Shown here one piece after another: positions 1-44,149 of a DNA stretch of 44,149 nucleotides (position 1 is its first letter; each line of letters starts with the position of its first letter). This DNA comes from Ichthyosporea sp. XGB-2017a. Lineage: Eukaryota > Opisthokonta > Ichthyosporea. The stretch is taken from contig PDIM01000020.1 of assembly GCA_002811675.1 (NCBI GenBank), positions 59,715 through 103,863 of the forward strand. The letters are read 5' to 3'. The notes under the pieces were generated by a model. The model was not told the DNA's origin, did not search any database, and saw only the letters and a list, made by a program, of their open reading frames with translations. The position numbers were made by a program, and so were the translations under genes.

Positions 1-267
1 AATCAGAAATGGGACAAACGCAGCCGAAATTGCCATCCAAAATAAATCCAACAAAAACAAAAAATAAAAACCAAAAAAAAAAAGCAAAAAATACAAAATA
101 CCTCTCAACAAAAAAAGCCCCTCAAAAATATGTGATGCCATTTGACAAAATTTCAAACCTTCTTCTTCATTCAAACTGTCTCGGTGTTCCTTTCTTTTTT
201 TTTTTTTGTTTCTTCTTTTATTGATTTGGTTCTTCCATTGGTGCTGTTGTGGTCTGTGGAGAATGAT

Positions 268-3971: not shown

Positions 3972-4483
3972 TATTTGGAATAAAGACAAATAGCAGCAAA
4001 AGCACAGGCAATTTCACAAGAGGTTAGCTCTCAATATTCAAATCAGAAGCAGTAAATCCAAATCTCTCACTGTCCAATCAATACTGCAGCAAATTATCTG
4101 GGAACAGATAAGCAATGGAAATATAAATAAAAGGCAGCGAGGCCTATATTGTATCCATAGTGAAAACTCAACCACAGGGAGGGGGCGTGATCCACGAGAG
4201 GTGATTGGGCTAGAGGATAATTGATGGAAAGCCATAATTACACCGCCTTGTGGGAGGGGGGGGGGTGCGCAAAGGGGGTGCGCATAGAGGACTTAATTTC
4301 TTTTTTTTTTTAGGCGGATCATTGGTTTACGTCATGTCTTTTCAAAAGGGTCAGATTTGGGTTTTATCTTGAGGCCTATACTTCAACCCCTGTGCGTTCA
4401 GGATTATATACGCATGCTAGCGGTCTGTAGCTTTGCTAGTGCGCGTTCCGGTGTTGTATGGTGGTGGCTTTACATTGTGAAGG
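3972..4483. promoter_or_regulatory. Shared divergent upstream region (GBE1 / SHPRH-like)
   Basis: A 512-nt gap between two diverging start codons, so it must hold both promoters. It contains a ten-G run at 4256-4265 and two copies of gggggtgcgca (4261 and 4274). A T-tract lies near 4300-4310. No open frame here looks like a protein. Confidence 0.6.
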
Positions 4484-7400
4484 ATGGGGAGAAAAAAGGC
4501 GAGCTCTGCCAACGTGCAAAGACTGTCGAAGGATAAAATCCATGCAAATAGTTGGAATTCTTCTCAAATTGATGTTCTTAGACAGGAAGAAATTATAACC
4601 TCGCAAGGTTCTTCGAATGTGGATTTGGCTCTTATTGGAGATAGAAGTGGCAGTCAAGATGTGCACAAGGGATCTCGAAAACGACACAAAAAGAACAATA
4701 ACTCAACCAAAGCGATCTGTTTTGTTTATGCAATCGAAGCTGCACCGAAAAAGGAAGAGCGTGGCGTTTGTTTTGAGGGGATAAAACTTGATTTGAAGCT
4801 TCGGGAGGACTATCATGGAGAGTTTGAATTGCTAAGCGAAACCTTAAAGGAGTTCTTCGGTTCACGTGGATCTCTCAAACTGGGAATGGGAAAGGAGAGT
4901 GGATACACGGAACGATTTTTGCTTTCAAACAGTTATAAGTGTGGAGGGGAGGAAGGGGAGGAAGCTTCGAGGTTCCTGCTAGCACATGCATTCTTTGAAG
5001 AAGACTTCACAGCTCATATTTGGTATTTGATCGAAAAGATGTATGTTGATGTATACGCAACGAAAGTACTAAGAGAAGATTCGGATGGAATGTCGATAGA
5101 AGTAATGTTACATCTCCGACCTGAAGTACTCGAAGGTGAAGACGTTTTTTCTGATGAGGCCTTTTCAACCATGAACAAACTTGCGTTAGGAATCAAGCCA
5201 TTAATGGAGTTTAGATGGGCTCATTTGAAACTTATTTCTATTGCACGTAATCTTGAAGCAAAGGACAAGGATGAAGTGAACATTGAAGAACTTTATCGGG
5301 CAATACGTCCGGATAATACTACCTTACCAGATTTTTCTAGTCCTTTGGAGCTTTTACCTACTCTTCGGCCCTACCAGAAGCGTGCAGTTTTGTGGATGTT
5401 GGGCAGAGAAAAGGGAACCGGAAAGCGTCGAAAACAGCTGTCATTTATACCGAAAGAAGATGGAAATAGAGATGATGAAGAAAAGAACTTACATCCAATG
5501 TGGACTCAGTTGTATGACGAAGGTGGACGCCCTTTTCTGTATAATCCTTACTCTGGTCGGCTTACAAGAAAACACTTTTGCTACCCCGAAGACGATGAGG
5601 TAAAGGGTGGTATTTTGGCAGATGAAATGGGACTTGGGAAAACAGTCGAAACGTTGGCATGCATCTTTAGCCACAGAGCTCCAGAAGCTTTCTCCAAAGA
5701 ATTGATACCATCCCCTAGTGATCCTAAAGCGAAATTGGTGAATTCCAAGGGCACTTTAATTGTGTCACCAACTGCAATATCTCGACAGTGGAAAGATGAA
5801 ATTCGAAAGCACATTGATAGCCGCTCATTGACGGTCAAAATATATGAAGGCATAACTGTTGAGGGGCCCATTAGTCCAGAGCTGCTTGCATCATATGATA
5901 TTGTAATTACTACTTACCAGGCTCTGCGAAATGACATTTACTTTTGCGATCTCAAAACGAATAAGCGCAATTTACGATTTCATAAGAAATACAAACCTTC
6001 TGCGAGTCCTCTGCCTTTGATTCATTGGTGGAGAATATGTCTAGATGAAGCGCAGATGGTGGAAAGTAAGACGGCCAATTGCGCGAAAATGGCATTAAAG
6101 CTCTCTTGCACTAATCGCTGGTGCGTGACAGGCACCCCTATTGAAAGGGGCTTGGATGATATATTTGGTCTTCTTTTGTTTCTCGGTCCTCGACCTTTGT
6201 GCTATTCACAGTTGTGGGAAGTGGTAATTAAAAGGCCGGTTTGCTGTGGTTCGAGACTTGCTAAAGACACGTTATATAGTTTCTTAGATGGGCTCTTGTG
6301 GCGTACTGTCAAGGACGATGTGAGTCACGAGTTGTATATTCCAGAACAAAATGATTACTTGCAGCAGTTGGATTTTCTTCCTGTAGAGGCACATTTTTAC
6401 CGGAAGCAACACGAACAGTGCTCAGAGGCGGCGATGGTGGTTCTGAACAGGCTTTGGAGGCAGCTACGTGGAAAAGAAGATAGTATACTATCATATGACT
6501 CGGCGAAAAAATTGATTCGACCTTTACTAAAGCTAAGGCAAGCGTGCTGCCATCCCCAAATAGGCAAAGGTGGCCAGCTGTCCCTTCATCACAAAGGAGC
6601 AATTACCATGGTGGAACTCCTTGATGAACTGATATCGAATTCAAAGCTTGAATGTGAAGAAGAACAGCGTGTAGTAGTTGCTGCCCTCAATGGATTGGCA
6701 GGTCTTTCATTTATAGAAAATGATTTGCAGTCTGCTGCTGATCTTTACAGAAATGCTCTTGCATTGGTTGCTTCCAATGAGCAGCACTTTCGAGTAGACC
6801 CCTTACAAAAACTGCATACTTGTTTTAACTTGAATCAATGCCTAAAACTAGCTAGTGAAAGCGATCCGCCTATATCTTTGCCAAAGACTCTAAGGGATGA
6901 TGGACTAGAAAAAGAAGTAGAAGATATAAAGCATAAGTATGTTAGGAAATTTCAAGAGCCTTGTGAAAACGCCTTTAAGACGTTTCATGATATCACAAAA
7001 GAAGCAGAAGTTCTTTTAAATGAAGATCCTGAGTTGCAGACGTGGTGGTATGATGTTTTGAAGGCGATTGAAAATACACACTCTGGCGTAGAACTCGTCG
7101 AAGCTGTTCGTACAGACCTCATTGAATCATTTTCAAGCTCATCAAATGCCGCTTTAGCGTCACTAGCAAACAGCTTCAATGACATTAGCGGGCTATACTT
7201 TATTCTTTCGAAAGAACTTCCTTCAATAATGAAAGGAAGAGGCTCATTACTATTGAAATTGTCTAAACTATCGAGCTCCCCAGCAAAAGGGGATGTTTAC
7301 GTGTCTGGCAACTGTCGATTCTGTCGTCCTGGAAAAACAGGCCCAAAATGTGTATATTGTGAAGCTGATGCAATATTCAAAGCATATGAAAAACTGCTGT

Positions 7401-9115
7401 TTTGCAGCATTAAAACCGCTACGAACAAAACAGTGAAGGGAGAGGCCGAGGAGTTTGAAGAAGGTGAGGAATTCAAAGAAGATGAAGACTTACTGGTTGA
7501 AGAAGAAAAATATCTGGACCCTGCAGAAAGACGAAAGCACAAAAAGTCAGAAACTACTTGGGCCGACTCTGAAATTGAAAGAATTTTGCGAAGCATAACC
7601 AACTTTGTGCGCCATAAGACCAACATCAAGTGGCCGAAATCGGCAGAGCTGGGTAAGCAGCATATAAAGGTGTTTTCACACCTTAAAAAGGAGTTTAAGG
7701 CAGCAAGATCGGCGTGGGTATCCCTTACGTATTTGGTTTCGGCATTAGATGAATTGGAAATGTCATTGATGCGAATGCGTTTACAGCTACCCGATGAAGA
7801 AGTTGATGAATACAACAAACTGTTTGTAATACCAAAGATTCAAATAGAAGATCAAAGATTAAAGTTATCCTCGGATAAACTTGTTGCTCTGGGAACGTTG
7901 GAAAGGTCGAAAGGCCAGCTATTGTACCTTAAGAACTTAAAGGAAAATACGGAGACAAATAGTGGTCACAACAAAGAGCTCTGCCCAATATGCCACGATG
8001 AGCTTGGCACACAGTGGGCGGTTTTTCCGTGTGGGCATTGTGTTTGCACAGAATGTGTTGTTGCCTTAATTGAACATAGAAAATCCGATCGCTTTAGATG
8101 CCCTAATTGCAGAGAAAATGTTGGTATTCACAGTTTCTCTTACGTTAACACAAGGCCCAATTATTGCACTGAGAACGAAGGTGGCGCTTCCTCCTCCGTC
8201 AAAGTAGTTGGTAGTTATGGTACAAAGATTGAGAATATTATTCATAAGCTCCTGTACATCAAAGAACAATCTCCAGGGGCCAAATCCATTGTGTTTTCTC
8301 AGTGGACAGATGTTTTGGAGCTTTTGTCTGTTGGACTAACGAAAAACTATCTATCGCATGTTAGGCCAAAGAGTCGTAAAGACTTCTTTTCTAGTATTGA
8401 AAAATTTAAACAGTCTGTCGATATTCTTCTGCTGCCGATTGAAAGTGGATCTAATGGCCTTAACCTGATCGAAGCCACACACGTATTTTTAGTTGAGCCA
8501 TCGTTGAATCCTGGTGTGGAACTTCAGGCCGTGAACCGTGTACATCGAATTGGACAAACGAAGCCAACGTTTGTGCATCGGTTCATTATCAGAAATACTG
8601 TGGAGAAGAATGTATTTCGACTAAGCCATAAGAAGGTGCTTGATTCACATGATAACGATGAACACACAACGCCAGCCTTAGCTAGTTCCGTTCGTAAACC
8701 ATCAAGTAGAGGTAGGAGTAACAATTTGTCTTTAAGAGACTTTTTGAGTTTGTTCGGAGGCCTTACAGATAATAGTGAAATAATAACCGTGGATGAGACT
8801 GAACAAAGCGACTCAAAAGCCGGAGAGTTCCCTCCATTTGAGAGTGAAATGTTTTGGAACGCCATGGTTGAATATAACGGCAGGCTTATGTCAAGACATG
8901 TGGTTCTTAATCACTTAAACATTCTCCGAGCTCACGAACGCGCTCGAACGCAAGAGGATGATTCACCGGATATAGAGAAAAAAGTAGATTTATTTGGAAA
9001 AGTTGTCCACATTCAATCCGCAAGAAAACTATTTGCATGCCATACTTTGGAAGACGACAACCCTGCAGTTTCTAGCTTTGTGAAAAAGTTGAAAGAAAGA
9101 ATAGAAGGGCTTTGA
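4484..9115 (+). CDS. SHPRH: SHPRH/IRC20-type SNF2 helicase with RING E3 domain
   Basis: 1543-residue intronless protein combining a SNF2 translocase with a ubiquitin ligase. Relatives (SHPRH, yeast Irc20) act in chromatin and in post-replication repair, including PCNA polyubiquitination. Seen: Walker A DEMGLGKT at 380-387, DEAQ box at 521, a long inserted region, a zinc-ribbon-like CxxC..CxxC (CRFC at 944, CVYC near 955), a strongly acidic stretch near 985-1015, a C3HC4 RING starting CPIC at 1167 and ending CPNC near 1210, and helicase C-domain motifs VFSQW and VNRVHRIGQT near 1345-1360. The RING between the two helicase lobes identifies the family. I see no linker-histone (H15) or PHD block such as animal SHPRH has. 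The start ATG at 4484 gives MGRKKASS. Confidence 0.93.
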   Translation: MGRKKASSANVQRLSKDKIHANSWNSSQIDVLRQEEIITSQGSSNVDLALIGDRSGSQDVHKGSRKRHKKNNNSTKAICFVYAIEAAPKKEERGVCFEGIKLDLKLREDYHGEFELLSETLKEFFGSRGSLKLGMGKESGYTERFLLSNSYKCGGEEGEEASRFLLAHAFFEEDFTAHIWYLIEKMYVDVYATKVLREDSDGMSIEVMLHLRPEVLEGEDVFSDEAFSTMNKLALGIKPLMEFRWAHLKLISIARNLEAKDKDEVNIEELYRAIRPDNTTLPDFSSPLELLPTLRPYQKRAVLWMLGREKGTGKRRKQLSFIPKEDGNRDDEEKNLHPMWTQLYDEGGRPFLYNPYSGRLTRKHFCYPEDDEVKGGILADEMGLGKTVETLACIFSHRAPEAFSKELIPSPSDPKAKLVNSKGTLIVSPTAISRQWKDEIRKHIDSRSLTVKIYEGITVEGPISPELLASYDIVITTYQALRNDIYFCDLKTNKRNLRFHKKYKPSASPLPLIHWWRICLDEAQMVESKTANCAKMALKLSCTNRWCVTGTPIERGLDDIFGLLLFLGPRPLCYSQLWEVVIKRPVCCGSRLAKDTLYSFLDGLLWRTVKDDVSHELYIPEQNDYLQQLDFLPVEAHFYRKQHEQCSEAAMVVLNRLWRQLRGKEDSILSYDSAKKLIRPLLKLRQACCHPQIGKGGQLSLHHKGAITMVELLDELISNSKLECEEEQRVVVAALNGLAGLSFIENDLQSAADLYRNALALVASNEQHFRVDPLQKLHTCFNLNQCLKLASESDPPISLPKTLRDDGLEKEVEDIKHKYVRKFQEPCENAFKTFHDITKEAEVLLNEDPELQTWWYDVLKAIENTHSGVELVEAVRTDLIESFSSSSNAALASLANSFNDISGLYFILSKELPSIMKGRGSLLLKLSKLSSSPAKGDVYVSGNCRFCRPGKTGPKCVYCEADAIFKAYEKLLFCSIKTATNKTVKGEAEEFEEGEEFKEDEDLLVEEEKYLDPAERRKHKKSETTWADSEIERILRSITNFVRHKTNIKWPKSAELGKQHIKVFSHLKKEFKAARSAWVSLTYLVSALDELEMSLMRMRLQLPDEEVDEYNKLFVIPKIQIEDQRLKLSSDKLVALGTLERSKGQLLYLKNLKENTETNSGHNKELCPICHDELGTQWAVFPCGHCVCTECVVALIEHRKSDRFRCPNCRENVGIHSFSYVNTRPNYCTENEGGASSSVKVVGSYGTKIENIIHKLLYIKEQSPGAKSIVFSQWTDVLELLSVGLTKNYLSHVRPKSRKDFFSSIEKFKQSVDILLLPIESGSNGLNLIEATHVFLVEPSLNPGVELQAVNRVHRIGQTKPTFVHRFIIRNTVEKNVFRLSHKKVLDSHDNDEHTTPALASSVRKPSSRGRSNNLSLRDFLSLFGGLTDNSEIITVDETEQSDSKAGEFPPFESEMFWNAMVEYNGRLMSRHVVLNHLNILRAHERARTQEDDSPDIEKKVDLFGKVVHIQSARKLFACHTLEDDNPAVSSFVKKLKERIEGL

Positions 9116-14214: not shown

Positions 14215-15588
14215 TTATGAAGGTAAATAACTTATCAATGTATTCCATCCCGAGCAGCTAAGAAGCCAGTTAGTGCCAGTAGCACTAAACAAATGCTTCA
14301 GTGATAAATGGCATTTTAATACTTCTTGCTCATACGCAAAAACATTCTTAGCTGCTTCAAGATTCAGTTCATTCAAATTCAGCTGACCAAATTCATTTGA
14401 ACCACATCCATACACTTCGCCTTTAGAAGAAATAACTATGGTGTGTCTTGTGCCGCATTGAACGTTGGAAAAATTCATCAATTCTGTTTCCCCACCTGCA
14501 CTTCTCTCGAGATGTTCCGTTGCTATAAGTTCTGGGGAAAGAGTAGATGTCGTCGATGTATTTCCAAGTTGGCCCCATTTATTCCACCCCCAAGTAAAGA
14601 CATCTCCACTTTCACTCAAAGCGGCGCAATGAAATGCCCCACAAGACACTTGTATCATTTTCATGCCTCCCAAACCCTCGATAACATGTTCCACAACCGG
14701 AGAAAGGATAAAAGCAGATAACTCGGAAGCGTGCGACAAATCGTCTACACTAGTCTGGCCACTGCCTCTTTGCCCATACCTATTTACCGACAGTAAAATG
14801 AGTCTTCTATCGCAGATACACACATAAAGTGAGTTCACTTTCACTTACCTGTTGTCTCCAAAGCTTAAACATCTTCCATCACTCAACAATGCTAAACAAT
14901 GGTTTTTACTACATGAAATTTGCGATACTGGAGCTCCATGAAAGCAAGGGCCAAAGACGCGCATCAAAAACTCGCTGGGCTTTCGCGATGCAAATGATTT
15001 CCCGTTCAATTCTTCTGGCGGGGGATATGTTTTGGTGCACATATGAGCTACGTACATTTTTCCTGACGACAGATGAATGCACACCAACTCATCTCTATAT
15101 ATATGCACATTTATCTTTTTAGAGCTCGCAGAATTCACTGTCTGCACTGCCATAACTTGAGAAAGTGGAATTTCGAAATCAATCCGTTTTGAGTCTTGCC
15201 GAGCAATAACCGTCAAATATAACATGCTCTGACAAAGAGGGTTTTTCACTGATGCAACACACACAACAAAAGAAGATGAAATATCCAAATCCTCAATCAC
15301 AACTTTCCTTTCCACACAGTCGTGATCAGTCAGGAACAAACTCTTCTCTTCCTCAGCAGAATCCCCACATTCCTCCATGTACTTTCTCACAAGATGCGAA
15401 CACTCACACGCCACCTCCACAACAGCATCACTTAAAGGGTTATAGCCGCTAAACAGGCAGGCCCCTTCGCAACCAAAGAGACAACTCCAATTTGCCCCAC
15501 TACGGATCCCCCTCGCCCTCACCTTCCCATTGGTGTGGTTGAGATTCCTCTGGGCGAATAAGTTACTCCCTGCAGTCTTAGTCTCCAT
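14215..15588 (-). CDS. RCCD1: RCCD1-like RCC1-repeat protein, two exons
   Basis: 434-residue protein after splicing 15588-14849 to 14779-14215 (69-nt intron, GTAAGT..TAG, phase 2). The joint restores SFGDNRYGQRGSG, an RCC1 blade. Further RCC1 repeats: ISCSKNHCLALLSDG, VSCGAFHCAALSESG with FTWGWNKWGQLG, and VQCGTRHTIVISSKG with YGCGSNEFGQL. The repeats lie in the C-terminal half, and the N-terminal half is a divergent propeller portion (GANWSCLFGCEGACLFSG), the arrangement of RCCD1. Human RCCD1 binds KDM8 and affects heterochromatin and mitosis; that role is family knowledge only. The start chosen is the ATG at 15588 (METKTAGS); the frame extends upstream only through a CA-repeat. Divergent from the 551-residue gene by 256 nt. 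Confidence 0.75.
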
Positions 15589-15844
15589 CTCCAGGGTGTG
15601 GATAGGATAGATCACACACACACACACAGATCCCTCCCCCGGGAAGGAACACCTCCCCTGGAGGAGTTTATGATAATGGCGGGAAATATGCGATCCAGCC
15701 TGAAGGGAGGAGGAGGATGTTTTCTTTGTCTTTGTTTTTTTATCCTTTTTCTTTGTGTTTTGTTTTGTTTTTTTTTTCTTTGACTTGTTTGGGTGCCTCG
15801 TCTTGATTTTGATGTCAAGTCTTTAAATTGGGGATCAGGATCTG
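15589..15844. promoter_or_regulatory. Compact bidirectional upstream region
   Basis: Only 256 nt separate the diverging start codons of the RCCD1-like gene and the unrecognised 551-residue gene. Contains a (CA)n run at about 15613-15627 and T-tracts at 15737-15780. Confidence 0.6.
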
Positions 15845-17509: not shown

Positions 17510-20500
17510 TTACATGTAGGTTTTTCTGATAGAGTTTAAGTATTGGTCATTGCTATGCTGCCTATGTGGGGCGCTAATTAAACTTGCGGATGAACCAAAT
17601 GCATGAGTGGGGCCAGCGGAAGACGGTCTAGCTAGATAAGATTGGCTTCCAAAAATTGAAGATCCCGGTGGCTGAATTCGGGAAAAAAATAGAGGTCCAT
17701 TTGAAGGGTCTCTGAAACTTTGGTCATTGGCGCTGTGCAAATCGTATGCCATTGATTCAAGTCTACCATTCAACGCCCGATTATTGTCTAGAAGATCAAA
17801 TACTTTCTTCTTTTCGTCATCAAGTGCAGCGATAAGTTTCTCGGCCTTCTGTATGGATTTCGAAAGCTTGTGCTCAAGCTTTTTCCTCATTTTCATTTCT
17901 TCGTGCCACATTGTTCGCAGCTTGATGAGCTCTGCTTGCAAGGGCTTCTTATTTGCTTGTTCAAACGTTAGCTCTCTTTGAGTTGCCTCCAACTGAATCT
18001 TAACGGTGCGCAGGGTGGCATCGAATTCGGTCCTCATTCTATGCTCATTTTCATCGCGTATCCTCGAAAGATTTTCGCGAGCTCTTTGTTGCTCTTCAAG
18101 CTGTTCATTGAGTTCTCGCAAGCGACTATTCACATCTTCCTTCATCTTGCCTTCAAATTCACTCTTGAACTTTTTGATTTCGCTCTTGCACTTCTCTTCA
18201 TACCTCTGCTTGATATTTCTGAGTTCTTCTTCTGTTGCAAATGTAATTGAAGCATTCCCGTAAGCTGGAATCGAAACAGAGCCTCCCGTATTGCGCGCTG
18301 CATTTAATAAAGAGTATTGAGTTTTTAGTGAATTTATCTCTCTCGTGAGATCATTCGCCAATGATTCCATTTTAGCCCTTGATTTTACTTCTCTCTTAAG
18401 CTGAGATTTAAGATTTTCATTTTCTCTTTTCAAAACAGAAATGTTAACCTCAAGGGTTGCCTTATCTTCCATATACTCCGCTTGAAGGCTTGAAATCGTA
18501 TCTTTTACTTCACAGGCTGATTTTTCGTTTTGACTCTGTCTGTTGCTTATTTCACCTTTGGCAAACTTCAGTAATGCGTTTTTCTCGTCCATTTCTTCCT
18601 CGATATCTTGCAACTTTTGCGCCAATAGTTCCATTTCCATTTGCATCATTTCAACTTTTGTTTCTGCCTTTTGGCATTTAGCTTTCTCGGACTCTATTCT
18701 CTGCTTGGCTTTCATCAATAGTTTTTCAAGTTGCATAAGCTTGGCTCCGACTTTGGAGCGAGAATTTACTTCCATTTCCCATAGACGATTACTTTCTTTG
18801 GCATCATTTTCGAATGCTTCCTTGGCCATGGTTGTTTGAGAGAGGCATTCAGTGAGGCTCTTAATCTCCGCTTTAAGCTGCGCTTCAGATGCCGTTGTGC
18901 TTGTTGACTGGTTTCTGACCTCAGTCATTAACTGCTCTTTATCCTCAATTCGCTTTTCAAGAGACCGTTTCTCGTTTTCTTCTTGAATCAGTTTTTGTCT
19001 CAATTCTAGCTCTTTTTCTTTTAGATTGGCAAAATTTTGCTCCACCAAAAGTTTTGCGGATTGAAGTTCAGCATTGCGTTTTTCTTCCACTTCCCATTTT
19101 CCACGCAAACTTGCATGTTCTTTTGAAAGTTCATTGAACTGAACGTTTGATTTTTCTTTCTCTGACTTGATTGATTCATACATTAACTTGGTAGAAGATA
19201 ACTCTTCTTGAACGCCTTTAAGCGAAGCCTGGAGTTGCTCTTTTTCTCTATTCCACATTTCCCTTTCATTTTTGAATTCATCTTTCAACAGCTTGATGAT
19301 ATCTTCCATATCTTTAGAGGGTACCATCGTCTCTTGTTTTTCTGAATACTTTTCTATAGACGTTTGCAGCTCCTCTCTTTCTTTTTGAGTCTGTTCTGAA
19401 TACTGTGTGTAGTTTGCCTCTAAATGCTTCACTTTCTCCTCCCACGTAAACTGCTCCAATTTAAGCCTATCCAGATTCATTGTCATTTCTGTATTCTTCT
19501 TTTGAAGTTCTTTAACAGCCTCAGTTTCCCTTTCCCATTTGGCTTCATACTTTTTCTTTTCCTCTTTAGCATATTCCAGTTCTTGTTCGAGCTTCTCAAT
19601 TTTAGAATTCAACAAAATTCTCTCTTTGTCCATAGTAGCTTCTTTATCTTTGACTGCATTTTCTACGGATTTTATCTCTTTCAACAATTTGTCATTTTCT
19701 CTTTGAAAAACGCCTAGCTCCTCAACCTTTGCAACAGTTTTGCCGGTTTCATTTGATGCCAATATTCGGAGCTCACTTACCTCTGATTTTGATTTAGCTA
19801 GCTCGGCCTCAATACCATCCAAAGCGGTTTTATGCTCGTCATTTTTTTCCTTTAGCTCCACTCCAAGTTCATCTATTTGATCCTTTTTACTCTCTAATTC
19901 AGCTTCAAGAGTTGCAAGTTCTGATTTAAGCGACAATATCTCTTTAGAGCTTTCCTCCTTTTCTTTCAAATAATTATTAGACTGAGACTCAAGTTCACTT
20001 TTCATAGATATGAGCTCCTGCTGCAATAGTTTAAGATCTTTGAGCTCATTTTCAGAATTTGCACTACTTCTAGAAATTTCTGAATTGACAGCTTCCTCTG
20101 TACTTGCATGCTGCTTGGAAATTGACTCTTTAATGAACTCTTTCGTCTCCCTCTCTTGTTTTAATTCATCTTTAAGATCCGATATTGTCTGATCTTGTTC
20201 CTCAACTACTTTAGTAATATCTTCAACTTCAAGTTCCAGCTGCTTTTTTATCATTTCAGCAGCTTCCCTCGCGTCAACCTCAGATGCCACTTTAGCTTTT
20301 AAAGTGGTAATCAATTCATCAAATTCTTGAACTTTATCTTCTAGTGCGTTGATCCGTCCCTCTTGACTATCCAATTCTTTGTTTAACGAATGATTTTTCT
20401 CTTCTAAATCCATTTTAGAATATTCGAGAGCGCTGACAGATGCCTCGAGGCTTTGACAAGACTTTTCTAAAGCTTTCTTTTCAGCCTCAAGTTTCCGGTA

Positions 20501-23500
20501 TGTGTTTGCAGTATTATCTACTTCTACTCTAGGCTCCATGACAATAGGATCTATTCCAGCCAGTGAATCAGAATCTTCATGAATAACGGAGGTTTTTCGC
20601 TCCGACCCGTCAAGCACATTAGAATTTGTCGAGTCTTGATACTGTTTTTCTAGTTCAATGGCTTCTCTAACCACATGTTTGTCCTTTGAAGACTGTGTTT
20701 CAGATTGATCTTCTTCATTTCCACTTATAATGTGCGAACCCCTTGACTGCTTTTCGGAAGCAATCGAGTCATGACTGTTGCTGTGGCTTGTGTATTTATG
20801 AAAGTGAATTTTTAGATCACCGGAATCCTCACGATCGCTTTCTGAAAAAGAATTTTCTTCGGCCGACTGTTTGGCTTCTTCGTCATGCTTTTCTGGCTCC
20901 TGAAACTCCTTGTGAGTGGAGGCCTTTTGTTTATCATCAGAATCAACCTCCTTGCTTACGTGCCTAAGCCCTTGTAAATTTTCTTCCTGCTTCAATATAT
21001 CATCGTTAGCTTTATCTCCTGATTCGGATCCATTATCCTTGTAATTTTCATCTTTAACGTCATTTTCCTCCTCTTTTTCACCTACACTTTCCCTTTCAAT
21101 GTCACTTTCACTCGCACTTTCACTGGAGCTTTTTGATGAATTCAGAGTATTCTCCTCCTTTGTTTCGCCGCCTGCAGTCACCTTTTCTTGCACTTCTGGT
21201 TCTTTGTCCCTCTCCATTACATCTTTTGTAGCCTTGGTAGTAACAAGGTCCTCAACGTTTTCATCTTGAGCATTGTTTATGATATTGTTGTCTGGTTCTT
21301 CTCTAAGATCAGATTCATCTTCGGAAGAATCCCAATCCGAACTTTGAGAGCCATCCTCTAACTCAGCCTGTCCCTGCTTTCCCTCCGCTCCAACCGCTTT
21401 TGCTGTAGCAGTATTGATTTCGCTCTTGTCCTTTGTTTCAGCCATTTCAGGCGGATTTTCATCCCCTTGGTTAGGCAATATAACTTTTTCACTTGGTTCT
21501 TCATCATGCTCACTTTCCGAGCTGTCCCAGTCTGATTCTTCCTCTGGGGGGTTCACGGTAGCTTGTACGGTTGATTTTGACATTACAGGGCTTTGAACAA
21601 CTTCTTCTGATTGAACTGATGAAACTGTATCCGTTTGCTTTTGTACTTGGGCCTGGCCTGAATCTGCTATTTGTGGTACCGTTGTCGCCTGTTTACCCGG
21701 TGTACTGTTGTTGGCCCCACTAAGACCGAGCCCTTCCCAAATGTCATCTGCTCCCTCTGAAAAATCCACGCTACCCTCACTTTCATCAGAGCCACTCTTT
21801 GCTGATTCCACTGCAAACTCAAAGCCTTCAGGCACTTTAAGTGCTTCCTTTTCATTGGAGGCGTCGTACGATGAAGCTGTCGGCAAAGACTTTTTGGCAC
21901 TTGTTGAAGGAACACTTAAAGTAGCTCCATGGCCAGGTTCTTCTTTTTGAGCAATTTTGCTCCCTTCCTTTGTGTCTCGATCTTCCACAGAGTGAAATGA
22001 CAGACCCCTATCGGGATCTTCGGAATCGTCTCTCTCATCATCTGTAGAATCCCAAGAGGATTCATCCCCCGTGCTTCCCTTTTCAATTTCGACATTTTGC
22101 TCTTTCGCCACGACTGACTTTGCTACATCTGGCTCATCTTTAAGTTTGGAGGCGTGGTAGGCTACAGGAAGTGGGGACTGGGCCTCCTTCTTACTGTTGC
22201 CTTTCCTTTCTAAGTCAATCGCATTCTTTTCATTGATATCATTTGCTTCATCTTGATCAGAATTGCTGTCATCACTATAGGTAGAAGGTAATAATTTTGC
22301 GCAGTTGTCGTAACCATAATTATCTGCATAGTCAAACGCAGTCCAATCAGTGTCGTCCTTGATGTTTGGATTGGCCCCCTTTTGTAAAAACAGTTTCACA
22401 AGACCCTCAGCGCCAGAAGATGCCGCAAACATCAATGGTGTCCGGTCCCGTGAATCATGACAGTTGATTTCGATTCCTTCATGAGAAGCTAAAAGCTCTG
22501 CGATAGTTGTATTTTTTCCCCGTACCGCTGTCATTAGCGCCGAAAATCCATCCTAAACGACAGTAGATCGGTTAGTATGTTAATAATAAAGAGGTATCGT
22601 CTGTCGAAGGTTCCATACGTACCTGATTCTTTTCATTGGCAGCACAGTCTTCAGCCTCCAGGAGCATTGCCACAGCTTGCGAGTTGTTGGTCATTACTGC
22701 GTGATGCAATGGAGTGTTCCCCTTATTGTCCGCCAAAGTCAAGTCTGCTTGTCCATCTATAAGTTCTTTAAGACAACTAATGTTTTGCTCCTCAATAGCC
22801 TTTCATGGATGGCAAAGGGCGTGAACAGATTAATGTAAGTTAGTTAATTGATTCTGTCAAGGATGAGAGCGGCCTTCCGAAACTATTCCTAACTTCAACA
22901 CAATTTACTTACAACTGTCGCAGGGGACTTGCCATCCTTGTTCATTTTTGATGTTGCCCCGGAATTCAGAAGAATGCGAACAATTTGAGCATTCCCGACT
23001 TTGCACGCGTGATGCAAAGATGAAAACCCTTCCCAGTCGGTTACATCTACTGTTTTCAAATTAGAGGATTCCTTCACTTGATCTACATTGTTATCTTTAA
23101 TTGCTTTATGTAGGACAGTGTAGTCTACATTCCCAATAGACTCACCGGGTTTTTTAGCAACACCGTCCGTAGACGCAGACGTGTCTCCTCCGGGACTGCT
23201 GACACTTCCTTTGCCCAAAGACACTGTGGTATCAGGAAGGGACGATTCCCTACTGACGGGCTGCTCAACTGGTTGACTTTTCTTCTGCTGTTGAACTGCC
23301 TGATTTGACGTCTTGGAAGTCTTTTGCCAAGGAAGAACTTCAGGCTGCTGTGCACTGGTTTGCTTCCCTCCCCCTTTGCCCTTGGATCCCTGGTATACTT
23401 CTTCTGGAACCTTTCCCTGCATAAGATCCAGCTCGGCCTGGCTGTACTGTGACGTACCTCCCTTTCCACCCCCCTTTCCCTTACCTTTCGAGCTGAAGGA

Positions 23501-23527
23501 CCTTTTCTTCTTAAAGAAGCTCTTCAT
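17510..23527 (-). CDS. ANKRD26-like ankyrin and coiled-coil giant, three exons
   Basis: 1944 residues after splicing 23527-22913, 22799-22623 and 22552-17510 (introns 113 and 70 nt; the second has a perfect branch site TACTAAC). Order: Lys/Gly-rich basic start; ankyrin repeats about 135-345 (SSLHHACKVGNAQIVRILL, NKGNTPLHHAV, DRTPLMFAAS), crossing both introns; a long acidic Ser/Glu linker with three WDS(S/T) motifs; then coiled coil from about 950 to 1840; and a short end YLNSIRKTYM. Vertebrate ANKRD26, a centriolar distal-appendage protein, has the same order, similar SWxxxDDE and PWDSE motifs, the late coiled-coil block EEMKMRKKLEHKLSK and a near-identical ending. So a basal-body role is inferred. 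Golgin-like or generic ankyrin proteins are less likely alternatives. Confidence 0.85.
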
Positions 23528-24075: not shown

Positions 24076-25449
24076 TCAACCGTCACCGAGCTTTTCGAGT
24101 ATAGTTGGAGGCAAATAGCTTTTGCAATCCGCAAGTGCAGCTCCCACTTCCCCAGAAGCTGATGATAGTTTTGCTACACACAGATCAAGCAGCGGGGGTA
24201 CATCTAATCTGCAGGAATACATTTCATTCGTTCTCTGGAGTCCGAGGAGGTCCAGACATCCCCCAAAAGAATACATTATTCCTCCTGGTGTGACACAAGA
24301 TGTATGAAAGTATCTTCCAACATGGGAGTGACTTGTAGGGACAAACTTCCATTCTTCTTTGTCTAAGTCAAAAGTCCATAAATCAGTGAAGATATTATAG
24401 CCATTCGCGCCCCCATAAAGGTAGAGCTTCCCTTTATACAAGTTACATGTATGTGACCGACGAGCCAAAGGAACGGCGGTTGAGTTTTGGCCTACAATTG
24501 TCCAAACTTTTGAGGAAAGATCAAGTCTATGAACATCAATGATTCCTGTTGGATTTGGGGCCCCGCCGCCCACTACATACAATGCACCCTTGTAAATAGC
24601 CACCTCGTGGCGATAACGAGGATATGGAATATCCCCAGTCGTCTCAATACGGGTCCATTTTCTGGTCATGGCGTCAAGGCGATAAGTGTCATTGAAAAAA
24701 TTGATACCTGAGGTGCCTCCAAAGAGAAAAATGTCTAAACTATCAGGATCTTTCACCAGTGTATGCCCATAGCGCGGGCTTGGTTTATCACCACCGCAGC
24801 AAAGTTCCTCCCACACACCCGTTTCAAGACAGCACAAATGAAGCTTGTCACTATTTGAATGGCCGAAGGGTACATTGCTCCCTCCAAAGACCAATAGATA
24901 TCCCCCGTCCAATACTGCAGAGTGAGAGGCTGTTTCCGAAGGTACATCTCCTCGAGTTTCTATCAGACGCCACGTTCTTGTTGGAATGTGCATTACATGC
25001 AAATCCCTGAAGCACAAGCCATCATGATAGCCCCCAAATACATAAAAATAGGTTCCCGATGAGTCGATGCATGATATATGCCCACTTCTTTCTGAAGGTG
25101 GCGAGCCCAAAGAGTTTTTTGATGGAGGCAGAGAATGCCAAAGCGAATCTGGTATGGGGCTAGAGCGTCTGCGATGTGCGAATAAATGTTCAAATGTGGA
25201 TGAAGACATGATACGACTTGGCTTAGTTGATTGAGTGCCTGTTCGTTGTCGAGAAGCGGAAGATGAGGAAGAAGAAGAAGAAGAAGAAGAAGAAGAAGAA
25301 GAAGAAGAAGAAGAGGGTCGGCCCTGGGCTAAATGAAATCGACCTAAAGATTCTGGGAGGTTGAAAAGAGTGCTACTGTCGTCTAGGTTGGTAGTGTTGC
25401 GTTCGCTAGGTTCAGAGTTTTCAAATAAGTGTGAATACTTATTTCCCAT
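24076..25449 (-). CDS. KLHDC-type kelch protein with BC-box
   Basis: 457-residue intronless protein. Seen: MGNKYS start, which fits the N-myristoylation pattern MGxxxS; a poly-Ser run (about 44-62) made by a GAA/TTC microsatellite; then six kelch repeats from about 110 to 415 with repeated GG doublets and W-x-x(6)-pattern tryptophans (FYVFGGYHDG, YLLVFGG, IFLFGGTSG, LYVVGGG, LYLYGGANG, MYSFGGC). After the propeller, PPLLDLCVAKL (418-428) matches the Elongin BC-box LxxxCxxxL, followed by a helix and SYLPPTILEKL. KLHDC2/3/10 proteins have this order and are Cullin-2 substrate receptors for C-terminal degrons. That role is inferred here. Start is the ATG at 25449. It lies divergent from the UBE2H gene. 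Confidence 0.85.
   Translation of the reverse strand: MGNKYSHLFENSEPSERNTTNLDDSSTLFNLPESLGRFHLAQGRPSSSSSSSSSSSSSSSSSSSASRQRTGTQSTKPSRIMSSSTFEHLFAHRRRSSPIPDSLWHSLPPSKNSLGSPPSERSGHISCIDSSGTYFYVFGGYHDGLCFRDLHVMHIPTRTWRLIETRGDVPSETASHSAVLDGGYLLVFGGSNVPFGHSNSDKLHLCCLETGVWEELCCGGDKPSPRYGHTLVKDPDSLDIFLFGGTSGINFFNDTYRLDAMTRKWTRIETTGDIPYPRYRHEVAIYKGALYVVGGGAPNPTGIIDVHRLDLSSKVWTIVGQNSTAVPLARRSHTCNLYKGKLYLYGGANGYNIFTDLWTFDLDKEEWKFVPTSHSHVGRYFHTSCVTPGGIMYSFGGCLDLLGLQRTNEMYSCRLDVPPLLDLCVAKLSSASGEVGAALADCKSYLPPTILEKLGDG
25268..25315. repeat. GAA/TTC trinucleotide microsatellite in coding sequence
   Basis: About 15 uninterrupted GAA units on the plus strand, read as TCT (Ser) codons on the minus strand inside the kelch gene. 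In-frame, so length changes would only alter the Ser run. Confidence 0.95.
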
Positions 25450-26932
25450 GTTCTTTGTTCTTTCTGTTTATATCTGAAGAGGAGCACACAATTCACAATT
25501 ATATCTGGCCAGTCCCACTAAACAAATGCTACTGAAGGATGCTGGATGTTGAAAGTGAAGAGTGCGTTGGGTAATACCGATGTGATGTCTGGGACTATGT
25601 ACGATGCCTGAGAGCCACTTTGCAATTTCTGTCACCAATGTGTAAGGAAGGCGCGGGTGAAGTACATAAATGGGGGGGAATGGAGAATCAGAATAAAGTA
25701 CATAAAATGATTTTCCAGTGCGTTTTCGACAAGCTCTGTGAATAAGATATCAGGGTATCTCTCCTTTGTTGTGTCCTGGTAAGGTACTTTCTATTTCCCG
25801 GGTAGCACATCTATTCATTGGTGAGGGGTGCGGTGTGTGATCCCCAGGGAGGGCAGCTTTATGCAGGTAGAGGGTGGGGGGAGATAGAGGGGAAGGTGGC
25901 TTAATTATAACAACAAAATAAACTTTTGGGGCTGTTATTGCATGGGATGGATATTATTAATTTTGCAGTGGACCAGAAATGTCAAGGAATTATCTGACTC
26001 CAGGTGTACTAGACTGTAGTACTATTATTTTATTATTGTTATTGGTGCTATTTATAGCCTCAATATCATTCATCCTGTGGAATGTGAAGTAAAGGAAAAA
26101 GCCCCAATTAGCCACTCTCATCAGGAGTAGTGTGCAGCTGTGGCCCTGTGTTATTATAGTGTGTTATAGTGTGTATTAGGGGATCACTGCTCTAGAGTAC
26201 ATGAATATTATTGATAGGGTTAGGGGTCTATTAATTTGTGGTTGTGTGATGTCATTTGACTATGATTCCTCTATAGTCCATAGCTATGCTCCTCCAGTTA
26301 GTTCTAGACTATAAAAAAGAGTCCCTTCCTGCCCCTGTCTCCACTATGGAGGGACTAGGGAGCTGGGACTTGGGACTTGGGAGTGGGTACCAGTAACCAG
26401 TCCCTCTGGGCTCTCTCTCCCTCCCCCAAACTACCTGCACAGTGCACACACAAAGCTGGGAGACGAACCACCCCTTCCCTTTCCAACTACACCACACAAC
26501 ACAGGAACAAGGAAGGATCCCTGACATAGAACCGCACAAGCCTCGAGTAGTTGTCCACCGCCAGTCAGCACAAGAGAACTAACTAACTGCATCGGCTGCC
26601 GCCCAGAGCTAGAGTTGAGTTAGGACACTGGAAGACAACTAAACTGGGGATTGATCTTTATTGGGAGAAGTATCGCTATTTCGCTGATTTATTATTGCCT
26701 TGTTTACTTCCCGCTTTCGAAACCTTCTGCGAATCCTGCTTCGTTGTTGCCGTGCACGCGTATCGAAGATTTGATTTTGCTTGCGGAAGAGCAGATTATT
26801 GCTGAAATCTGAAACTTGCAAATATATTTCTGTATTGCGAGTGACAAACGTATTGTTCGCCACCCATCTTTCAACTGATAAAGAGTGCCAAATCTTGCAG
26901 CAGAACAGTTTTTTAAGAATATATATTGCAAC
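25450..26932. promoter_or_regulatory. Large divergent intergenic region (kelch / UBE2H)
   Basis: 1483 nt with no convincing gene. It contains G-rich tracts (25670-25890), AT-rich tracts (26010-26060), tandem GTGTTATA-like units near 26150-26175, and direct repeats of gggactt near 26365-26378. The 13-mer ctatagtccatag at 26271-26283 recurs at 32623-32635 in another intergenic region. The last 300 nt are probably the UBE2H 5' leader. Confidence 0.5.
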
Positions 26933-28181: not shown

Positions 28182-31100
28182 TCACGTTTGCTTTGAAATC
28201 GCTTTCAAGTCAACGAGATGCCTCATAGTTGGTCTTCCGTGAGGGCAATTCCATGGCTGTTCAATTTCGGACATGTGCTTTAAAATCGTTTTCATTTTGG
28301 CCAGCCGCAAAGCAGTGCCGATCATTACAGAGCTTCTACAAGCGCGAGATGCAAACATTGCTGATACTTTCGATGGGCGCACTAGTTCCCCTGGAGCGTC
28401 CATGAGCAGATGTATCATTTCTTCAATATCAGGCTTTCCAAAGCTCACATTTTTGGAGTATGGGATCTTTGATAACGATACTTGGCGCCCACATTCTTTT
28501 TCTCCATCGACGACAAAGTCAAACCCATTTTTTTGAAAAATTGGCAAATTATCAAGAAGAATAGACTCGCTAAGAACATTCAGCTCCAAGGGCATCGGAT
28601 GTATAAGATTTTGGCTGTGCACAATAGTGTTCTGTTGCAACGTTTCATAGTTGTATTTTTCGTCGCTGGCATGTTGGTCAACAATAAAAAGGTCTGTTTT
28701 CCACCGTGCAATAATAAAGCCAAGATTAAATTGGCCAACGACTTCCATTTTTAAAAAGTCCTCCTTCATAAAAGTCTTACGCAACTCCTCCTCCGCTTCT
28801 TCATTTGTTTCCGCAGAAATTTTGGCTTTAAAAAGGTGTGTCTTCTCCGAGGCGGCGTCCGTGTGTTCGTGAATAATACGCCCGTTTTCTCTACGGACGC
28901 ATTGTCCAACGCTGTCTACATCTAAAGATACTTTAAATTCACTGACGGCTAAAGAAGGAGGAGCATTGTCTTCCATTACGTGGTCTACATTCGTTGGAGC
29001 AAGTCGGTCTTTGCGTTGGATTTTCTTCGCGGGGGGTCTCGACACTTCACTGTCGTTGCTTTCATCTTCTGTTTCACTGTCAACAACAACCATTTTGGAC
29101 TTTCGCGAGAGATTTAACGATGACCCACCACTATCCGCTCTACGCGAAGAGATTCTGCTAGACGATGAAAAACCTTCCCTCCCAGAACTCTCTCCATGAG
29201 TTCTTCCCCGTTTAATTGTTATAGTTTCAGTTCTCTTACTAACGTTGCGTCTTGGGTAGCTTTTGTTCACGTCTTGGCGATATTCCATGTCAATAATTTC
29301 ATCTACAGTAAGCTCTCGTGTAGCACTGTTTGATTCAAGTTCGCTATTCTCGTGTCGTACCTCACTTGGTTCTGTCAAATTCTCTTTGGAAGTTGTGTGA
29401 GAGGAAATTAAATTCGCAGACTTATTTTTGGAATTCGCTACTTTATCATCTGTTATCATTTCGACATGAAATGTTCCCTCTTCCTCCCCAGTAGGACCAT
29501 TTTCGTCTTTACCTTCCAACTCCCCGTCCACTATCATTTCAACTTGGTAATCCTGTGCATCAATAGTTTCTTTCATTGGCTGCTTTGCGCCATCATAGGT
29601 TACCATTTCGACCTGATAATCTTGATCTTCATTGGAGATGCTGTTACTCACTGTTCGTGGCCTCTTTTTTACTTCTTGCTCATAGTTCACATCAAAATTT
29701 TGTTCTTGGTAATTTTCATCGGGATTCTTGCTGCTTTCCAAAGAGGACTCTTCGACCGAGCCGGTCACTCCCCGTTTTGACGTAGTTCCACGTCCCAGTA
29801 CGTTTATGTTTGATAAACTAACAGTATTAGCTTCATCTTTTGAGTCGTCATTTGCTTCTCTAATGTGAGTAGCTTCCTTGTTACTAAATGAATTATCCAC
29901 CAAAGATACATGTAAATCTTCGTAAGTATTAGCTTCATCTTTTGAGTCGTCATTTGCTTCTCTAATATGAGTAGCTTCCTTGTTATTAAATGAATTATCC
30001 ACCGAAGATACATGTAAATCTTCGTTTTCCTCTGTCTCTGCAGGGGCATCAACTTTTACAGCTGCCTCTTCTTTTGGTTTTTGCCTTGAAAATGTAGGTA
30101 AGCTGCATGTTAAATCATTGACCGCATAGGAACTTCGTGAAGGTTGAAACATTTTTTCGAGCACAAACTTGAGATAATTTTTTAGCTTCTTCTCTTCTTG
30201 AAGAAAAATGGACCTTTTATCCGGGGTAACGTTCACATCATACAAATCCCGACGTCCAACAATATTTAGAATAAATACTGGATACTGATTCCCATTGAAC
30301 ATTCGGTAAGTTTCATTTACGACTTTAGTCAGGCGCGGAATATCACAGGGTCTGCCATTAATGTAAAAATACTGACGGTCACCACTGCTTCTCCCACATG
30401 ACTTCTCAGGCTTGGATATATACCCGTCCAGTTTCATGTTCAAAGTCGTCAGTACATCGAAGCCCAAAGCTTCATTTGCTTCGTTCATTACCGAAGGTTC
30501 CACTATAGGCATTAGTTGCTGAAATTGCTTTACACCAAATACGTTGATGATATTGTCTTTGATAGTTTTGTTGCTGTTACAGCTCACTACTATAGTCTTT
30601 TTTCCTGATTTGGAACCCCCTTTACCTATTTGATTGGAGCACGATAGCCTCAGATTTATGCTTATCAAGCAATATGCTTGAATCAAAGTTACCATCTTGG
30701 CAAATTCTTTTTTCACATTTTTCTTGAATTCTCGGAGTCTTACCGGCAATGTAGCAAAGAGATTTTTTAAAGTCACGGTAGTCCCGCGTTCCCGTGCACA
30801 TGGAGTTTTCTTCACTACCTTGCCCTCGTAGTCAAATTCCAGCAGAACGCCATCATTTTCACTTTCGTCTTCTTCACATTTTGTTTCTACTGACAATTCC
30901 CCCATAGCGCATAGAGAGCTTAATGCCTCTCCACGAAAACCAAATGTGCCCACTTCGCTTAGATCTTCGAAAGAATGTAGTTTGGAAGTAGCATGTTTTT
31001 TGGTCAGTGCCTCATAGTTACGGCTGTGTACACCCTTCCCATTGTCCCACACGCTGATAGATTGCACACCATAATCACACAGGCGCACATCTACACGGGT

Positions 31101-31229
31101 AGCTCCTGCATCTATGCTATTCTCCACCAGCTCTTTCACCGCAATGGCTAAACTGACAATAACCTGCCCAGAGCAGATTCGGTGAACGTCTTGGCTATTG
31201 ATTGGCTTGATTACTTCCTCGTTTGCCAT
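28182..31229 (-). CDS. PMS2: PMS2-type MutL mismatch-repair endonuclease
   Basis: 1015 residues, equivalent to human PMS2 and yeast Pms1, the latent nuclease subunit of MutL-alpha. Seen: GHKL ATPase motifs ELVENSIDAGA (about 34-44), DNGKGV (about 62-67) and GFRGEAL (about 95-101); a transducer domain with YFYINGRP and DVNVTPDKR; a very long Ser/Glu-rich linker (about 385-800); then the endonuclease domain with DQHASDEKYNYE (Asp851 first residue, the DQHAx2Ex4E metal motif), FASRACRSSVMIG and CPHGRPTMRH. All catalytic blocks are present, so the enzyme should be active with an MLH1 partner. The linker carries a 34-residue tandem duplication and a repeated VEM motif. Longer than human PMS2 (862) because of the linker. 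Start ATG at 31229; intronless. Confidence 0.97.
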   Translation of the reverse strand: MANEEVIKPINSQDVHRICSGQVIVSLAIAVKELVENSIDAGATRVDVRLCDYGVQSISVWDNGKGVHSRNYEALTKKHATSKLHSFEDLSEVGTFGFRGEALSSLCAMGELSVETKCEEDESENDGVLLEFDYEGKVVKKTPCARERGTTVTLKNLFATLPVRLREFKKNVKKEFAKMVTLIQAYCLISINLRLSCSNQIGKGGSKSGKKTIVVSCNSNKTIKDNIINVFGVKQFQQLMPIVEPSVMNEANEALGFDVLTTLNMKLDGYISKPEKSCGRSSGDRQYFYINGRPCDIPRLTKVVNETYRMFNGNQYPVFILNIVGRRDLYDVNVTPDKRSIFLQEEKKLKNYLKFVLEKMFQPSRSSYAVNDLTCSLPTFSRQKPKEEAAVKVDAPAETEENEDLHVSSVDNSFNNKEATHIREANDDSKDEANTYEDLHVSLVDNSFSNKEATHIREANDDSKDEANTVSLSNINVLGRGTTSKRGVTGSVEESSLESSKNPDENYQEQNFDVNYEQEVKKRPRTVSNSISNEDQDYQVEMVTYDGAKQPMKETIDAQDYQVEMIVDGELEGKDENGPTGEEEGTFHVEMITDDKVANSKNKSANLISSHTTSKENLTEPSEVRHENSELESNSATRELTVDEIIDMEYRQDVNKSYPRRNVSKRTETITIKRGRTHGESSGREGFSSSSRISSRRADSGGSSLNLSRKSKMVVVDSETEDESNDSEVSRPPAKKIQRKDRLAPTNVDHVMEDNAPPSLAVSEFKVSLDVDSVGQCVRRENGRIIHEHTDAASEKTHLFKAKISAETNEEAEEELRKTFMKEDFLKMEVVGQFNLGFIIARWKTDLFIVDQHASDEKYNYETLQQNTIVHSQNLIHPMPLELNVLSESILLDNLPIFQKNGFDFVVDGEKECGRQVSLSKIPYSKNVSFGKPDIEEMIHLLMDAPGELVRPSKVSAMFASRACRSSVMIGTALRLAKMKTILKHMSEIEQPWNCPHGRPTMRHLVDLKAISKQT
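29823..30025. repeat. 102-nt in-frame tandem duplication in the PMS2 linker
   Basis: Copy A 29823-29924 and copy B 29925-30025, period 102 nt (34 codons), with about three mismatches by eye. Encodes two copies of a unit beginning EDLHVS and containing VDNSF, NKEATHIREAND and SKDEAN. Confidence 0.95.
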
Positions 31230-32284
31230 TTCCTTTTTAAATATGTTAAAGGCTAATAGTGATATATTTCTCTTAACGGTAGTACTCCTTCACCTCTTCT
31301 CACTCAACGACAACAAACAACAAAATAAGATTTACTGGTTCTATTTTTGCCAACACAAACCAAAAACAAACAAACCGAAAAAAAGAAAATAAAAAATAAA
31401 CCGAAAAAAAAAGAACTGAAAAGTTAAAAGTTTTCGGAAGATGTTTTTTGCGGAAATTTCCCGCCAAAAAGGATCAGGGGCCAGTAGTGAGTAGGAGGTA
31501 GGGGCCAGCGCCCGCCCCGCAGTCATCACTCAGCAGTCTGCAGTCCCCACTTCTCTCCGCTGAAGAGCCCATTCAGGCTCGACTTTTCTCGACTCTGAAG
31601 GCAGGACGTCCCTGTCTGGTCGAGGTGTCCGGTACAAAAGTCAAGGAACGTGTTCAGGGCTAGCTGCCCCTCTTTCTTTCCTATGAGGTTTACTCCAATA
31701 CAGTGTAGTATAACTCTTTTTATTGCTTATCTTCATTAAAGTTGGTTCTTTTCTTTACATGCCATGCCTGATTCATCCATTGTCCGCATAGATATACAAC
31801 AATGCCTGTAGCATTGCCGTGGTAACGCGCACACGAAACACAATCATAGCTCAGATTCAGTACATGCCAGTGAAGGTACCTGCTTAACATGGTCAGCCTA
31901 CACAACATCTACTGGACCTCTATCTCCCTTCCCCAAATATTCCCCGATTGCCAGCTACAAGGACGATATGAAGAGAAAGAGTAAGCACAGGAAATCTTCA
32001 AATCATCTATCAGACTCCTTTCCAAATAAATAATAACATCTACACCACCAAAAAAGCAACCGCCATTATTCATATACTTTCAAGTGATTTCAATCTAACC
32101 TCCAGGGCCTTAATTGTTACCCTCGTTCAAAGTATGTTTTCCTGATGTGCCCATTTCAATAGCGAGATCCTTAACCCCTTCTTCATCATATCCTGTGCTT
32201 GCTTAGCCATTAAAGGTAAAACAAAAACCCACCCATATCACCAGCATTATTTGTGTATTGTACATCTTTCTTTTAGCTACGCTT
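31230..32284. other. 1055-nt intergenic region upstream of PMS2
   Basis: Contains A-rich tracts (31360-31420) next to the PMS2 start, then mixed sequence. A short minus-strand open stretch (about 32107-32192, acceptor-like CACAG before it) could be an exon but has no recognised partner. No gene or RNA called. Confidence 0.45.
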
Positions 32285-43921: not shown

Positions 43922-44149
43922 TGCTATTGGGAAACTAATACGAAAAATAAGAAAAGCAAAACAGAAGAAGGAGGAGGAGGAGGATTTGGTTTAGAAGTTC
44001 AAAAATAAACCAACAGAAAAAAGCGAAACTAAACAAAACATAAAAAAAAAGCCAAAAAAAAAGACAAAAAAAGACAAAAAAGTAAAATAAAAAAAAAAAA
44101 ATCTCGGTACCTTATTTTTCCTTTTTTTTTTCTTTTTTTTTTTTTTTTT
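43922..44149. other. A/T-rich terminal stretch
   Basis: A GGA-repeat (43968-43981) then A-runs and T-runs to the window end. Upstream sequence of CMTR1; nothing else seen. Confidence 0.5.

Follow-up and report, generated by a model that had tools for sequence, protein, structure and literature searches.

A probable counterpart of animal ANKRD26 in the ichthyosporean Chromosphaera perkinsii

The window, by which the whole analysed stretch of 44,149 nucleotides is meant (assembly GCA_002811675.1, contig PDIM01000020.1, positions 59,715 to 103,863), contains on its minus strand a gene of three exons (23527-22913, 22799-22623 and 22552-17510) with GT/AG borders. Six splice combinations keep the frame open and differ by a few residues; the version encoding a protein of 1944 residues was chosen. 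This protein is identical, in every letter, to the EukProt entry Nk52_evm29s967 (P0001) of Chromosphaera perkinsii, so the splice model is in line with the published gene model. The Nk52_evm prefix denotes C. perkinsii, of the class Ichthyosporea (PMC6981761). An intron density of 0.7 per kb of coding sequence has been reported for this species (PMC5560861), and the gene has two introns in 5.8 kb. The genome searched here comprises 25.06 Mb in 291 contigs and is smaller than the published assembly of 34.6 Mb (PMC5560861).

The ankyrin repeats, the acidic linker, the coiled coil of about 900 residues and the terminal YLNSIRKTYM that an earlier note had read from the DNA are all borne out by the splice model (Table 1), and in the protein the acidic linker comes after the ankyrin block and before the long coiled coil, which was judged by eye. 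Five ankyrin Pfam models score above their cut-offs. When the protein and parts of it were scanned with Pfam for a coiled-coil family, the only matches were weak, generic and below cut-off. An open frame of 557 residues lies tail to tail with the gene, nine bases separating the two stop codons; other open frames of the window are included in the table.

Table 1. Coordinates of the ANKRD26 homologue, its parts and other open frames, numbered from the first base of the window
Feature	Position	Strand	Basis or remark
ANKRD26 homologue, full coding span	17510..23527	-	splice model, stop codon included; EukProt Nk52_evm29s967
N-terminal residues 1-9, MKSFFKKKR (compare mammalian MKKIFSKKG)	23501..23527	-	BLOSUM62 score
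Ankyrin block with two introns inside, residues 131-352, divided by hand into seven repeats	22289..23137	-	Pfam Ank families; repeat register
Acidic linker, residues 356-935	20540..22279	-	25% D+E, 11% K+R
WDS motif 1, SSWDS, residues 429-433	22046..22060	-	linker pattern search
WDS motif 2, SDWDS, residues 604-608	21521..21535	-	linker pattern search
WDS motif 3, SDWDS, residues 669-673	21326..21340	-	linker pattern search
Coiled coil, residues about 940-1860	17765..20527	-	by eye; weak generic coiled-coil Pfam matches below cut-off
Conserved segment with homology to the C-terminus of ANKRD26, residues 1705-1848	17801..18232	-	genome and profile searches, alignment
C-terminal tail QYLNSIRKTYM, residues 1934-1944	17513..17545	-	tail score
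Open frame, JmjC match	136-1779	+	
Open frame, CBM48/amylase match	1950-4013	-	
SHPRH-like SNF2/RING ubiquitin ligase, single open frame	4481-9115	+	Pfam
Open frame, one RCC1 repeat	14845-15822	-	
Open frame, 557 aa	15827-17500	+	without Pfam match
Open frame, Kelch match	24076-25467	-	
Mismatch repair protein of MutL type, dimerisation domain at its C-terminus	28182-31289	-	
Open frame, FtsJ match	42149-43990	-	

A human ANKRD26 C-terminus, used as a lead and checked against the database, had a single match at E up to 10 in the whole C. perkinsii genome, namely the gene described here (E 4.5e-6; all four first-look candidates scored). This query is recognised by Pfam as DUF3496 with 183 bits, and the database sequence of human ANKRD26 agrees with the human sequence used here at 99% over the searched region and at 99.4% over residues 1-1670. 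The armadillo ANKRD26 C-terminus, a database sequence, likewise found this gene as its single match (E 8.5e-8; all five candidates scored), with 30% identity over query residues 4-143. Mammalian ANKRD26 C-termini thus match this gene alone in the genome, which supports the ANKRD26-like reading proposed in the earlier note. In a paralogue search with the C-terminus, the best other locus in the genome reached E 0.51, and by this search the gene has no C-terminal paralogue there. An elephant query reversed by hand gave a weak hit at the position of this gene (13.3 bits, E 0.75).

Controls for the coiled-coil composition comprised 114 queries, that is, 57 forward windows from armadillo ANKRD26, from a coiled-coil protein of a chytrid and from an oyster protein, together with their 57 exact reversals. 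Four forward armadillo windows that reach into the C-terminal part scored 30.7, 30.3, 29.9 and 15.1 bits, each match covering residues 1705-1848 wholly or in part; the best of the other 110 reached 7.7 bits, and the armadillo windows over 781-1560 gave at most 2.2 bits. With filters off, a profile of seven mammals scored the ichthyosporean protein at 29.5 bits over the full sequence, the best of 75 other ankyrin proteins at 3.4 bits and the best stretch of the reversed ichthyosporean protein at 5.8 bits, and among 2000 heptad shuffles that kept the real tail the best domain reached at most 10.5 bits, as against 30.4 bits for the real sequence. With the default HMMER filters the same profile fails to report the protein, and this failure, together with a large bias correction, calls for caution with the profile result.

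In the opposite direction, the ichthyosporean C-terminus found itself alone among 2008 candidates from a large protein collection (E up to 10) in a search that requires shared exact words, and the last 240 residues matched nothing in the PDB sequences below E 0.48. The two Pfam families that match horse ANKRD26 strongly gave no support at this gene: PF12001 (DUF3496; cut-off 23.3 bits) left it unmatched and had five genome matches elsewhere, below cut-off, and PF14915 (CCDC144C; cut-off 35 bits) had no genome match at E up to 10.

The extreme ends of the protein and its linker were compared with a set of mammalian sequences. With E limited to 1, a search with human ANKRD26 returned 463 proteins, the best 120 of which were examined, all from mammals; 112 of these best 120 of 463 end in (I/V)LKKNYM plus one residue, which corrects the terminal EALKKNYMI given in the earlier note. 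Because the human entry P0077 represents an isoform that ends differently, the reference for the mammalian tail was taken from other species. Against mammalian tails, the 11-residue ichthyosporean tail scores 29 (the better of two tails at two offsets), and the 75 control C-termini score 11 at most; a score of 29 is reached by 2 of 133,057 control 11-mers and, within the ichthyosporean protein, by one of 1934, which is the tail itself. Both the tail and the late part of the coiled coil match ANKRD26. The earlier note had named, as evidence against its reading, a coiled coil hitting myosins or golgins only and a tail lacking an ANKRD26 match, and neither came about. At the N-terminus the BLOSUM62 score is 26 over eight residues, the best of 75 control N-termini reaching 17. 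In the linker, the WDS/SWPT pattern [DS][SDP]W[DP][ST], which was chosen after both sides had been viewed, occurs three times in the ichthyosporean protein and at least twice in every one of the best 120 of 463 proteins, all 120 being mammalian and including several isoforms per species in some cases. Its variant SDWDS is found twice in the ichthyosporean linker and in 84 of the same 120 mammalian sequences. The pattern is absent from the 133,807 residues of the 75 controls, and none of 100,000 linker shuffles reached three occurrences.

The ankyrin block is less informative. Used as a query, it retrieved 76 proteins, itself included, from 866 candidates, with no ANKRD26 among the names shown, many rows being nameless or incompletely named. 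The human ankyrin block matched 54 places in the genome but not the ANKRD26-homologue gene, in which introns interrupt the block, and the block was therefore set aside as evidence. Horse ANKRD26 and the ichthyosporean protein have seven repeats each, and their pairing gives the highest mean score at shift 0 (29.3); since shift +1 comes close (27.5), the evidence for repeats in the same order is weak. Among the 120 mammalian sequences, the best of the 463 proteins, 26 keep the sixth repeat, which human P0077 lacks, and the horse entries P0195 and P0093 also have a seventh, with GWTAEEYA.

On these comparisons, homology with ANKRD26 is demonstrated for residues 1705-1848, with the N-terminus, the WDS motifs and the tail agreeing in the same order. 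The gene is with good confidence the C. perkinsii counterpart of animal ANKRD26, and a probable orthologue, the assignment being based on a one-way unique match and on co-linearity, not on a tree. Homology might nevertheless be confined to the C-terminal part, the ankyrin block and linker having been joined to it independently in the ichthyosporean lineage. The ankyrin block, which is not specific and whose register favours the same order only slightly, would permit such a history, as would the description of the Caenorhabditis elegans protein as homologous to the ANKRD26 C-terminus (PMC7198521). We regard it as unlikely, since the N-terminal residues and the linker motifs, which lie outside the C-terminal part, agree as well, and since the horse isoform and the ichthyosporean protein share the number of seven repeats.

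Still less probable is convergence, in which the gene would encode an unrelated ankyrin and coiled-coil protein, either lineage-specific or kin, for example, to UACA, RAI14 or ANKRD24. The architecture does recur, as in a 3005-residue chytrid protein (P0073) that combines ankyrin repeats, an acidic linker and a long coiled coil but lacks the C-terminus of ANKRD26. Yet convergence would have to account for a localised, co-linear C-terminal match with clean controls and for three short features outside the matched segment, namely the N-terminus, the WDS motifs and the tail. An animal gene that entered the assembly through contamination or lateral transfer is hardly credible: no point in its favour was found, the same protein is present in the EukProt record of the species, and in the matched segment it has diverged strongly (30% identity to armadillo). 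We therefore retain the reading of the gene as the ichthyosporean ANKRD26.

Published work places ANKRD26 at the centriole. In worms and human cells, it is reported to recruit FBF1 to transition fibres together with TALPID3, and the human C-terminus alone to be sufficient for localisation to these fibres (PMC7198521). The earlier note had ascribed a distal appendage role to vertebrate ANKRD26; the role stands, and its restriction to vertebrates does not, given that C. elegans ANKR-26 is a published C-terminal homologue (PMC7198521). Canonical ninefold centrioles of near animal size are described in C. perkinsii, and an acentriolar organiser, with Sas6 and Plk4 lacking, in Sphaeroforma arctica (PMC11153136). 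The genome searched here has one SAS-6 match (E 8.3e-31). Genome searches for the published partners FBF1 and TALPID3 returned nothing above cut-off, misses that are weak as the control genomes were prokaryotic. Since the C-terminus is the best-conserved part of the ichthyosporean protein, since the human C-terminus localises alone and since centrioles are present, we infer a C-terminally anchored transition-fibre protein. By analogy with the published ANKRD26 work, the C-terminal segment would anchor the protein on the basal body or mother centriole, at its transition fibres (distal appendages), and the protein would there contribute to gating or docking the flagellum. The long coiled coil may be a rod, extended and probably dimeric, while partners or membrane may be bound by the ankyrin block, the WDS motifs and the basic N-terminus.

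A role in the PIDDosome, which the earlier note had named for ANKRD26, finds no support in the ichthyosporean protein. The autoproteolytic domain of PIDD1 (PF10461, a model of 33 positions) has two genome matches that stay below cut-off (E 0.27 and E 0.54), in an assembly smaller than the published one. Residues 911-1181 of human ANKRD26 are reported, in a commentary, to bind PIDD1 (PMC7878771), and the middle coiled coil that includes this stretch is not recognisable in the ichthyosporean protein by the window searches. According to the same commentary, a second study found PIDD1 to bind an 'acid region' of ANKRD26 (PMC7878771), and if this region is the acidic linker, the ichthyosporean linker could still matter for PIDD1. 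The protein is most likely, by analogy, a basal-body transition-fibre protein older than the PIDDosome role, the link to PIDD1 being presumably a later addition in animals.

Given this counterpart in a unicellular relative of animals, ANKRD26 probably predates them. We lean slightly towards a history in which the ancestor shared by ichthyosporeans and animals already had a full-length ANKRD26 as a basal-body protein, the worm form was reduced secondarily, PIDD1 was recruited in animals, and the WDS repeats are an unrecognised ancestral docking motif. If this is true, a full-length ANKRD26 in a centriole-bearing ichthyosporean dates the protein before animals, and its old basal-body role is separable from that in the PIDDosome. 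A second, distant sequence also makes the short conserved pieces (the C-terminal segment, the tail and the WDS motifs) stand out, which renders them testable. Transition-fibre proteins are reportedly not all widespread even within holozoans, a statement for which Tischer 2021 is cited. A literature search found no pairing of ANKRD26 with choanoflagellates and, in titles and the opening lines of abstracts, nothing on ANKRD26 outside animals, although Tischer 2021 may already list a holozoan ANKRD26; within the literature searched, the protein is apparently undescribed in unicellular lineages. Among animals, it has already been published in nematodes (PMC7198521), and the gene described here is a further member of a known family, not a new kind of system.

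Among known systems, mammalian ANKRD26 has an ankyrin block, an acidic linker, a long coiled coil and a conserved C-terminal helix in the same order as the ichthyosporean protein. Both tails have the form Y-x-x-x-(I/L)-(K/R)-K-x-Y-M, the first eight residues are alike, and mammalian ANKRD26 too carries WDS motifs in its linker. Unlike it, the ichthyosporean protein lacks matches to PF12001 and PF14915 and a recognisable PIDD1-binding coiled-coil stretch, and, besides the ankyrin repeats, identity of about 30% is confined to one segment of about 144 residues. In the chytrid Rhizophlyctis rosea, P0073, which carries the name 'Ankyrin repeat domain-containing protein 7', resembles the ichthyosporean protein in its three-part architecture and differs in having no ANKRD26 C-terminus by profile, no PF12001 or PF14915 and a different tail. 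The POTE family, compared by description, is described as derived from ANKRD26 but is a primate-specific descendant. ANKR-26/CANK-26 of C. elegans (K10G6.4), likewise compared by description, resembles the ichthyosporean protein in its published homology to the C-terminus of ANKRD26 and is placed at the transition fibres of the basal body; it is described as a C-terminal homologue, whereas the ichthyosporean protein keeps the whole order.
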